From assembly GCA_011319805.1 (NCBI GenBank), contig SJRY01000250.1, forward strand, positions 620,001 to 684,000: a stretch of 64,000 nucleotides of DNA, given 5' to 3'. The position numbers were made by a program, and so were the translations under genes. The notes beneath the pieces are model-generated. The model ran no database searches. It saw only the letters and a program-made list of their open reading frames with translations, and was not told the origin of the DNA. This stretch comes from Macrocybe gigantea. Its lineage: Eukaryota; Basidiomycota; Agaricomycetes; Agaricales; Callistosporiaceae. Positions 36,558-39,993 of this stretch are shown here, in pieces. Each line of letters starts with the position of its first letter. The stretch's first letter is position 1.

Positions 36558-38229
36558 TCAAAAGGTTGTAACCACTTCATCTGCATTCTGTACGCCCCAA
36601 ACGCGTTCTAGTAAAAGGGACAAGAGCACGGTTGGCCCGGGCGTCCCAACTATACATGAGACTCCAGATCCCATGTGGAGGGCATCTGCAGCACTTTCTA
36701 TTTCCACCTGAGCCGGATAGCTATGTGCCTCGTGTGCCTCCGAGACTGACTTTTCCAGTGTTGCCTGGACGAAAGCACGATTTGCACCTGGTGCATATGC
36801 TGACTCGTCCTGCCGCCTGTCTACGACGACCATCCCACGAGTGACTTCCCCAAACCTGTGGGAGATCACGAGCTGAAAATCCAACATGTAAGTGGCGCAC
36901 ACCTTTCAATATCAAAAACCTTTGTCTCCATGTGCCATCCACTCGTCAAGGTCAAAGAACAGCTCGGCGGGTTTTCGATGGCGCACCACATCGCCACTAT
37001 GTCGTGGAGCTCGACCGCGTCCTTGCCGAACTGTAACATCACTTCTCGCGTTCTTTCCAAGAATGCGCTAGTGAAGTGAACCAGGGACGATTTGTCCTTC
37101 GCCCGAGATGGGGATGCGCTAGAGTGAAACGATGGGTCAACCTGCCGTTGATAGACGGAGAAGGGTAGTTCATGGGGTGTCGTGATATCTAAGGGAAGTA
37201 GGACAAAACGATCGAACGGCAGACCGGACGATGGGTGTGGAGGCAAGAGCAACTCTTTGGCAGCGAACGGATCCGCAAAAAAATTGACTGGCACTGTGTC
37301 AGTGGAGCCCAGAAAGACACCAACATTCAAACACCCACACTCTGCAACAGGACTGGTATTGCCAGGGACATCCAGTGCACCTCCCATGGAGACAATTCTG
37401 CCTATTCGACTTCTGATCATCTCTCCATCCCGTCTGAACATGTACGCAAGATTAGTGAGGGGACCCAGAGCAACATAAGTTATGGATCTGGGGGGGTAAG
37501 AGCGTATCAGCTCCAGGGCAACATCCACTCCCGCCTTAGTCGTCAAATTCAGGTATGGATGGTTAGTCAAGTCTGGATCGATTGGGGAAATTTTTATGTC
37601 TGGGTGACGTTCACTGATCCCCCCCAGACCGTCTCTGATTTGAATCCGCCAATCAGCAGACTGCCGTCGGCACGGGCAAGGACTGGGGATCGGACCTGCC
37701 ATGGAAATACTGAGCGCTGTGTAATTCGCCCATTATCGGTCCTGAGGAACCTTTCGCAAGAATAGGCTTCACTGGACCCGCAAAGTTGGGAAATCGAGCA
37801 CGATGGGTGGGGTGTCGCTCGAGGTAGCTGGAAATCACTTGGTATGTCTTGAGAATATTAATGCTATTTGTAGCAGGCGTTGGTGAGCATCATCTAAGAA
37901 GAAAATCTCAACACCGACTGTGAAGATTCTACATCAGTGTTTCCTGAAAATTTCAACGGCCGCAGTAAGCAGATCGGTTTGTCTATCGAAGCTGGTTGCA
38001 CTCGAACCGAATGAAACAATATAAGCCAATATTTCTAGTTCTGGGGAAGCGATGGCTAACAGTCTGCCCGTGATTCGTAAAGATCCCCTCAGATGAAAGG
38101 GCGTCAGACGAACATTGCAAGAGTATCATCGACGCCAGGATCCGTATCAACTACGTCGGGATGAATGATAATTGAAGTTCACATGCTTGGAAGGGGCATA
38201 CTGATGACTGGCGTTCTTCTATTGGCCAT
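36558..38229 (-). CDS. Inosine-uridine preferring nucleoside hydrolase
   Basis: Hydrolyses ribonucleosides to base and ribose for salvage. The start at 38229 gives MANRRTPVI, and a splice of about 50 nt restores IDTDPGVDD, the Ca-binding signature of the family. LLAIASPELEILAYIVSFGN and TDVESSHINILKTYQVISSY follow across further short introns. Then KPILAKGSSGPIMGELHSAQ, YFHGRDGLGGISERHPDI, YVALGPLTNLAYMFR, IVSMGGALDVPGNTSPVAEF and NFFADPFAAKELL (substrate-binding Asn/Asp). The C-terminal Asp motif is ELHDIVAMWCAIENPP, then RGMVVVDRRQDESAYAPGAN. The 5' leader appears to contain an intron (38547-38381) carrying a U24 snoRNA. Transcription is divergent from RACK1. Related in pathway to the nucleoside transporter at 62 kb. 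Confidence 0.93.
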
Positions 38230-38276: not shown

Positions 38277-38294
38277 AAAAAAAAAAAAAAAAAG
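38277..38294. repeat. A18 run (T18 on the minus strand) in the hydrolase leader
   Basis: About 18 consecutive A residues on the + strand. It lies downstream of U24 copy B in its transcription direction, where it reads as a T run, in the predicted 5' leader of the nucleoside hydrolase. It could be a simple repeat. A polymerase III terminator is formally possible but not needed if the snoRNA is intronic. Confidence 0.6.
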
Positions 38295-38380: not shown

Positions 38381-38547
38381 CTAATGGAGTAAAGAAGGAC
38401 GTCAGTAAGTATAAAGCATGGACCAGTGCAGTATGATTCAGAGATCTTGGTGGAAAATGTGGTCTCATTGGGTGTAACCCTCCGAAGTAGCAAATATTGG
38501 ATGATAGCATCATTATGGCAGGGAGAAACGAGAATACAAGGACTTAC
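38381..38547 (-). other. Predicted 5'-leader intron hosting U24 copy B
   Basis: On the minus strand a consensus donor GTAAGT begins at 38547. A branch-point match TACTGAC lies at 38407-38401, followed by a pyrimidine-rich tract and the acceptor CCATTAG ending at 38381. The 167-nt length is close to that of the RACK1 intron (179 nt) that holds the other U24. Because the nucleoside hydrolase ATG is at 38229 on the same strand, this is best read as an intron in its 5' untranslated leader. No transcript evidence is available here. Confidence 0.65.
38436..38516 (-). ncRNA. U24: C/D-box snoRNA U24 (snR24), copy B
   Basis: Read on the minus strand: a C box ATGATGC (38513-38507), the antisense element ATATTTGCTACTT, a D'-like CGGA, an internal ATGAGAC (C'-like), then ACCAAGATCT immediately before the D box CTGA (38441-38438). 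The two antisense elements are those of U24, which guides 2'-O-methylation at neighbouring sites of the large-subunit rRNA (yeast snR24). In this copy the D-box guide extends as AGATCTTGGTGG complementarity, longer than in copy A. The terminal stem is weak. It lies about 57 nt upstream of the predicted 3' splice site, a spacing usual for intronic C/D snoRNAs. Exact ends are approximate. Confidence 0.82.
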
Positions 38548-38701
38548 AGTTGGCTTGAGATCCATGCACATAGGCAAGTCGCCGCCAGCCGCTTTAAGCA
38601 ACAAAAACTGTACAGTCACGTCACGGTGGCTTGAGCGTGACGTGACACTCGGTCTTCTCTCAAACTTGCGTTTCCGCTGAGGCCTGCATCCAGTGAACAC
38701 C
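38548..38701. promoter_or_regulatory. Compact bidirectional promoter, nucleoside hydrolase / RACK1
   Basis: The interval between the predicted leader intron of the hydrolase (-) and the RACK1 ATG (+) is only about 154 bp and must contain both transcription starts. It includes two closely spaced CGTGACGT-like and GTCACG-like motifs (38615-38645), which resemble CRE/ATF-type palindromic half sites; their use is inference. Confidence 0.45.
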
Positions 38702-39993
38702 ATGTCCGAATCTCTGCGTTTCCTCGGCTCCCTCGAAGGCCACAAAGGATGGGTTACCGCCATCGCTACGTCCTCTGAAAATCCCGACATGATCTTGACC
38801 GCCTCTCGAGGTATTCCTTTCTCAGGCCGCAACCCGGACTCGCAACTTCTAATAACCATGTATTCCAGATAAAACCATCATCGTCTGGCAATTGACTCGC
38901 GACGAGGACTCTTACGGATACCCAAAACGAATCCTACACGGCCACAATCACTTTGTATCTGACGTCGTTATCTCCTCTGACGGCCAATTCGCCCTTTCTT
39001 CGTCCTGGGACCATACATTGCGCCTTTGGGACCTCAACACTGGATTGACAACTCGTCGCTTCGTCGGACACACGTCCGATGTTTTGTCTGTCAGCTTCAG
39101 CGCTGATAACCGGCAAATTGTTTCTGGCTCCCGCGACCGGACAATCAAGCTCTGGAACACGCTCGGTGAATGCAAGTATGATATCAAGGAGGATGGTCAC
39201 ACCGAGTGGTGCGTGGGTAGTTTACAGTGGTTCCAAAGCGCGACTGAATATATCTCGTTCAGGGTATCCTGCGTTAGATTTAGCCCTAATGCAATGAACC
39301 CTGTGATTGTCTCGTGTGGGTGGGACAAAGTTGTGAAGGTGGGTTGTCGAAATCCAATGCCTCTTTCCAATGCCACTTCCCTTTCACATGATGTTGCCTT
39401 ATTATATTTGCTACTTCAGAGGGATTCGTCCCCATGAGACTACATTTTCCTCCAAGATCTCTGATCCCCTGTCCTCTCCGTCCACTTCTGTTATCTATAT
39501 TCTTACAAATCTACTAGGTTTGGGAACTTTCCAAGTTCAAGCTCAAGACCAACCACTATGGCCACACTGGCTACATCAATACTGTCTCCGTCTCTCCTGA
39601 TGGTTCATTGGCCGCGTCTGGTGGCAAAGATGGCATCACGATGCTGTGGGATCTCAACGAGGGCAAACACCTCTATTCCCTTGAGGCTGGTGATGTCGTC
39701 AACGCCCTTGTTTTTCACCCAATCGCTATGGCTGTGTGCTGCCACAGCAAGCTGCGTCAAAATCTTCGACTTGGAGAGCAAGTGAGTCTCGGTCCTGAAA
39801 TGAGTCACTGTGTTATTCTAACTAAACTCTGGTCCTTAGGTCCATCGTTGATGAGCTCAAACCCGCTTACACCGACGTTCGTGAGGACGCAAGACAACCG
39901 GAATGTGTATCTATCGCCTGGTCTGCAGATGGCCAAACACTGTTTGCAGGATTCACTGACAATGCACTTCGTGTCTGGACCGTGGTGTCATAA
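38702..39993 (+). CDS. RACK1: RACK1 / guanine nucleotide-binding protein beta-like (Asc1, Cpc2)
   Basis: Seven-bladed WD40 protein bound to the head of the 40S ribosomal subunit; links translation to signalling. The start at 38702 gives [20 protein letters not shown] and [16 protein letters not shown], then DKTIIVWQL after intron 1. WD repeats follow: [123 protein letters not shown] and [20 protein letters not shown]. The stop is at 39991-39993. Five introns, four of about 55 nt and one of 179 nt (39339-39517) that carries U24 copy A. The ratio of conserved repeats and the roughly 315-residue length match the family exactly. Confidence 0.97.
39384..39468 (+). ncRNA. U24: C/D-box snoRNA U24 (snR24), copy A, in RACK1 intron
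   Basis: Inside the 179-nt RACK1 intron: C box ATGATGT (39388-39394), the antisense element TATTTGCTACTT followed by CAGA (D'-like), internal ATGAGAC (C'-like), then CCAAGATCT directly before the D box CTGA (39461-39464). These blocks are those of U24/snR24, whose two guides pair with adjacent segments of 25S/28S rRNA (AGTAGCAAATAT and AGATCTTGG) to direct 2'-O-methylation. In budding yeast snR24 also lies in an intron of ASC1, the RACK1 orthologue, so the host gene is conserved. The D box ends 53 nt before the 3' splice site. Ends are approximate. Confidence 0.9.

Follow-up and report, generated by a model that had tools for sequence, protein, structure and literature searches.

An inverted pair of U24 snoRNAs in the introns of two divergent genes of Macrocybe gigantea

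Introduction

The snoRNA considered here is U24, a box C/D snoRNA also named snR24 or SNORD24. In yeast, snR24 (U24) lies in an intron of ASC1 and reportedly methylates, as a guide, positions 1437, 1449 and 1450 of 25S rRNA (PMC4848094, excerpts), and the portions of PMC2780460 drawn on here describe a single, dual-guide U24 for this organism. The same portions describe pairs of U24-type RNAs that cover the two 25S sites with one site per RNA, namely U24/U24b in S. pombe, CD50/CD51 in Neurospora crassa and U24/U76 in animals; CD50 and CD51 lie on I (intergenic) and VII (intron). Furthermore, the mobility of snoRNAs into new host introns (PMC3511168) and the snoRNA-associated gain and loss of introns in fungi (PMC3596301) have been described, according to excerpts of both papers.

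Here, we analyzed a 64,000-nt stretch of Macrocybe gigantea DNA (the window, taken at its whole length), in which two U24 snoRNAs, copies A and B, lie on opposite strands in predicted introns of two divergent genes. Protein similarity agrees with an agaricomycete source. Copy A has the same U24 guide pair and the same RACK1 host as the yeast snR24/ASC1 system (PMC4848094, excerpts), but unlike in the account of yeast a second copy is present in the divergent neighbour gene. Like the pairs of S. pombe, N. crassa and animals, A and B are two RNAs of U24 type for the two 25S sites; in contrast to what is described of those pairs, each has one weak spot but has retained both guides, and in contrast to CD50 and CD51 they are adjacent (PMC2780460, excerpts). 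The locus resembles the mobility cases in that a snoRNA occupies a second intron away from the old one, and differs from them, as far as the excerpted parts of PMC3511168 and PMC3596301 go, in that the snoRNA's presumed new intron lies in the leader of a neighbour that would share the promoter, in inverse orientation. Copying of snoRNAs between introns is an ordinary and already known process, whereas the divergent-neighbour layout is unusual. No title on such a U24 pair was present among the literature matches listed, whose coverage stopped short of the fungal snoRNAome survey PMC5824354, where an earlier record would most likely be. Judging from the sequence, the locus very probably holds two functional intronic U24 genes, with A as the old occupant of RACK1 and B as a paralogue in a 5′UTR intron of a nucleoside hydrolase gene.

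Results

Two U24 snoRNAs on opposite strands

The two copies and their elements are as follows, in coordinates of the window:

39388-39464, plus strand: U24 snoRNA copy A, in RACK1 intron 3
39388-39394, plus strand: C box of A, ATGATGT
39404-39415, plus strand: D′ guide of A
39417-39420, plus strand: D′ box of A, CAGA
39435-39440, plus strand: C′ box of A, TGAGAC
39452-39460, plus strand: D guide of A
39461-39464, plus strand: D box of A, CTGA
38438-38513, minus strand: U24 snoRNA copy B, in the predicted 5′UTR intron of the nucleoside hydrolase gene
38513-38507, minus strand: C box of B, ATGATGC
38498-38486, minus strand: D′ guide of B
38484-38481, minus strand: D′ box of B, CGGA
38467-38462, minus strand: C′ box of B, TGAGAC
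38453-38442, minus strand: D guide of B
38441-38438, minus strand: D box of B, CTGA

The inverted U24 pair in predicted introns of two divergent genes is real. An earlier note on this DNA had proposed two U24 snoRNAs on opposite strands, and the boxes, the guides, the Rfam match of B and the homology between A and B confirm them. Its spacing of about 0.9 kb fits the 874 nt between the C-box ends of the two copies, the identical guide blocks that it named are present in both, and the D boxes lie 53 nt (A) and 57 nt (B) from the 3′ splice sites, as it had claimed. All four boxes (C, D′, C′ and D) are present in order in A as well as in B, where the D′ box is off consensus (CGGA, versus CAGA in A). 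Measured against the C box consensus RUGAUGA, both copies deviate at the last base. Inspection by eye revealed no clear terminal stem beside boxes C and D in either copy, and Rfam flagged one pair of the end stem as non-standard in A and in B.

A and B each have a pair of guides that fit the U24 sites in the fungus's own 25S rRNA. The target, AGATCTTGGTGGTAGTAGCAAATATTC, occurs exactly at two loci of the genome, both of them within matches to the Rfam eukaryotic LSU rRNA model. Counted upstream from the box, the fifth nucleotide lies opposite the C of AGATCTTGG for box D and opposite the A of GTAGCAAAT for box D′, in A as well as in B (computed on L006). These two sites are 12 nt apart in the 25S rRNA, the same as the spacing of the yeast snR24 targets (PMC4848094, excerpts). 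Copy A pairs with 25S in Watson–Crick runs of 9 (D) and 12 (D′), the D run being ended by a mismatch at the tenth guide position, and copy B in runs of 12 (D) and 13 (D′).

Covariance and genome-wide searches

In a search of 3 kb with the Rfam SNORD24 model (RF00069, E ≤ 10), copy B was matched at 38434-38515 on the minus strand with 36.3 bits (E 0.00088) and copy A at 39383-39465 on the plus strand with 22.2 bits (E 2), so that both miss the gathering score of 41 bits. No Rfam match reached its gathering score anywhere in the 64,000-nt window, and a search of the whole window at E ≤ 3 listed copy B alone (E 0.019). The covariance search that the earlier note had called for therefore found B and missed A at E ≤ 3, an outcome that the note had named as counting against the pair, with A appearing weakly in the 3 kb. 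Taken alone, the covariance test would not admit A, given its 22.2 bits, its E of 2 and its absence from the window search. A is secured by the genome match to B's intron, by the fit to 25S and by the presence of U24 at the same RACK1 junction elsewhere. A survey of Pleurotus ostreatus based on Rfam reports seven snoRNAs, one of which is SNORD24 (PMC5040776, excerpts); since A and B both lie below the gathering score, that single SNORD24 is compatible with a second copy there.

When the intron of B was compared with the 41.2-Mb genome, the sole other match reported was copy A (87% identity over 61 nt, E 1.9e-12), and A and B were also the only places in the genome that matched a two-guide pattern. 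No third U24 copy was found in the genome by scans with the two-guide and single-guide patterns. With one mismatch allowed, the D′ single-guide pattern matched 17 places (reversed control pattern, 30) and the D pattern 7 (control, 0). After A, B and, for D′, two places on the complement of rRNA genes had been set aside, 13 D′ and 5 D places were left. No snoRNA was seen by eye around the nine D′ places inspected (all but C262:616017, C265:145708, C318:43508 and C318:121064) or around any of the five D places. The scan of bacterial and archaeal genomes gave one place, in an actinobacterium. In the collections scanned, a looser pattern matched at least 120 stretches. In viral contigs, 20 places that matched the two-guide pattern plus a D box were judged on inspection to be chance occurrences and not snoRNAs, and no relative of RACK1 was found there.

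The RACK1 gene hosting copy A

The plus-strand host and its introns are:

38702-39993, plus strand: RACK1 (Asc1/Cpc2/Gib2) gene, the sole strong match in the genome
38811-38868, plus strand: RACK1 intron 1
39209-39262, plus strand: RACK1 intron 2
39339-39517, plus strand: RACK1 intron 3, 179 nt, phase 0 after codon 175 (between KVVK and VW), hosting copy A

The gene model places copy A inside a 179-nt RACK1 intron, which bears out the host that had been proposed for it. For intron 2, four alternatives were open and the one that fitted the homologues was chosen. The yeast ASC1 intron presumably lies at the same codon as intron 3. The gene product has matches to Gib2 and further RACK1 structures. 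The genome search turned up no second RACK1: beyond the four pieces in the window, all other matches were much weaker (best 34% identity, E 4.1e-15), and we take them to be other WD40 proteins. Relative to the homologues, the reading frame shifts within exon 4 (about 39708-39742). Because of this change of frame, either the host gene or the assembly is faulty, and the change could be an assembly error or a real defect.

The nucleoside hydrolase leader hosting copy B

The minus-strand host and the region between the two genes comprise:

36558-38229, minus strand: IUNH-type nucleoside hydrolase gene (PF01156), start codon at 38229, 3′ end approximate
38381-38547, minus strand: predicted 5′UTR intron hosting copy B, 167 nt, GTAAGT ... 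CTTAC/CTGAC ... TTAG
38548-38701, no strand: putative shared divergent promoter region with both leader starts, 154 bp
38615-38646, no strand: inverted repeat GTCACGTCACG/CGTGACGTGAC, 11-bp perfect arms, 10-nt spacer

The predicted 167-nt intron in the hydrolase leader, claimed previously as the host of copy B, held up as a prediction and precedes the start codon at 38229. Once a short first intron is removed, the hydrolase starts there with MANRRTPVIIDTDPGVDD. Joined by hand from its exons, it aligned over 93–100% of its length with the 120 homologues listed, the best of which was from Lyophyllum shimeji (71% identity), and it had one match in the genome. Its start lies within a few residues of those of nine out of ten chosen aligned homologues, the tenth being longer. 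Seven residues precede the VIIDTDPG(-like) motif here, compared to at most 15 in 91 of the 120 listed homologues and more in three (the exact motif used left 26 unmatched). As the hydrolase starts at 38229 with a short N-terminus like that of its homologues, the intron of B precedes the coding sequence and lies in the 5′UTR. Splice signals like those of B (donor within 60 nt, branch site and acceptor within 80 nt of a 79-nt core) occurred at 556 of 127,200 window positions with a strict donor, real introns included, and at 1,616 of 127,200 with a loose one. U24-like peptides were present in none of the 120 hydrolase proteins fetched, which is neutral on whether copy B is conserved, because a UTR intron is rarely translated. 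At about 38277-38293, the predicted 5′UTR also has a stretch of A only (T on the minus strand).

The RACK1 ATG and the splice donor of B's intron are separated by only 154 bp, and with this spacing the starts of both pre-mRNAs are expected in a single divergent promoter. The inverted repeat in this region occurs at one exact place in the genome, and its symmetry would suit a factor acting in both directions. In the working that we propose, the shared 154-bp promoter would drive both pre-mRNAs, each intron would be spliced out, debranched and trimmed to its snoRNA, and each U24 would guide 2′-O-methylation of 25S at the C in AGATCTTGG and the A in GTAGCAAAT. A second copy under the same promoter could increase the supply of U24 or, if the small flaws matter, mark the start of a division of sites. 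The loss of one D-guide pair in A and the off-consensus D′ box in B hint at an early division of labour, and the locus may illustrate a possible route from one dual-guide snoRNA to two: a copy is placed in an intron of the gene divergent to the host, and a split of tasks may follow. That the pair is in the course of dividing its jobs appears doubtful. In that reading, B with its full 12-bp D guide and weak D′ box would take the C site and A with its good D′ box and broken D guide the A site, in a repetition of the U24/U24b and U24/U76 splits, and transcription of the two hosts from the one 154-bp promoter would keep them in balance. A and B each keep both guides instead of one working guide per copy.

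It is also unlikely that the host of B is a distinct non-coding RNA transcribed from the divergent RACK1 promoter and not the hydrolase mRNA leader. Splicing would then serve the snoRNA alone, an arrangement compatible with a functional B and with the non-coding snoRNA hosts known in fungi from excerpts of PMC2780460 and PMC3596301. Against such a transcript, only 151 nt separate the intron from the hydrolase start codon, both on one strand, and no conserved gene was identified between the two.

Comparison of the two copies

From C box to D box, A and B were identical in 62 of 77 aligned columns, and their local alignment score of 80 compares to a maximum of 24 in 1000 shuffles. The likeness is confined to the snoRNA: the flanks of ∼200 nt on each side, which cover the intron ends and neighbouring sequence, were no closer than shuffles (562 and 465 of 1000 shuffles were at least as good). 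Three of 46 positions differ in boxes and guides as opposed to 12 of 31 elsewhere (Fisher p 0.0008), an argument for selection drawn from this one pair of sequences. Between D′ and C′, a hairpin is predicted in both copies (GGGA-UUCG-UCCC in A, GGGU-UAC-ACCC in B), its fourth pair being altered on both sides, with folds about one standard deviation better than those of shuffles (28/200 and 33/200 shuffles at least as good).

Because the changes avoid boxes and guides and the hairpin pair is changed on both sides, copy B does not look dead on these comparisons. A decaying pseudocopy of A that landed by chance in the hydrolase leader and gives no working snoRNA could account for the CGGA D′ box, the C box ending in C, the unclear terminal stem and a host that is not a ribosomal gene. 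We nevertheless consider this quite unlikely, as all 25 guide-run positions of B (12 + 13) pair with the organism's own 25S, more than those of A, the splice signals are in place, and the pattern of changes just described points the same way.

Origin of the second copy

Translated U24 inserts were present between KVVK and VW in 4 of 120 fetched RACK1 proteins (7,277 matches overall), namely P0124 (Infundibulicybe gibba), P0126 (Lentinula lateritia), P0167 (Leucosporidium creatinivorum) and P0178, which are apparently gene models reading through the U24 intron. Such mis-annotated host proteins preserve translated snoRNAs in databases and offer a cheap way of mapping hosts where genomes are absent. 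Since U24 peptides stand at the same RACK1 junction in all four, the site of A is old; by parsimony, U24 would have resided in this intron since before the split between Agaricomycetes and Leucosporidium, whose relative placement we assume. With the site of A being old, B is most simply a later copy of A and thus the likely newcomer. A region search with the P0124 insert matched only P0124 itself, and no relative of copy B was found in a search whose only fungal genome was that of M. gigantea.

The earlier note had suggested an inverted duplication or host switching. Duplication of the snoRNA stands, although no inverted segment is visible: given the flanks, a segmental inverted duplication was not shown. 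Host switching lacks support, A being still in place at the RACK1 junction where other basidiomycetes have U24, and the origin was likely duplication. The scores of the read-through peptides against A and B do not separate the two (46/45 for P0124, 56/54 for P0126, 39/40 for P0178 and 42/36 for P0167). That U24 moved between hosts, leaving A as a remnant or a newcomer, is very unlikely, even though snoRNAs do move between introns (PMC3511168 and PMC3596301, excerpts) and the RACK1-hosted U24 of Infundibulicybe (P0124) is B-like at two positions where A and B differ, since the four proteins make A's site old and the whole P0124 peptide fits both copies about equally. Under duplication from A to B, the B-like reading of P0124 at these two sites (N for H and T for S) suggests that A has changed there, its D guide included.
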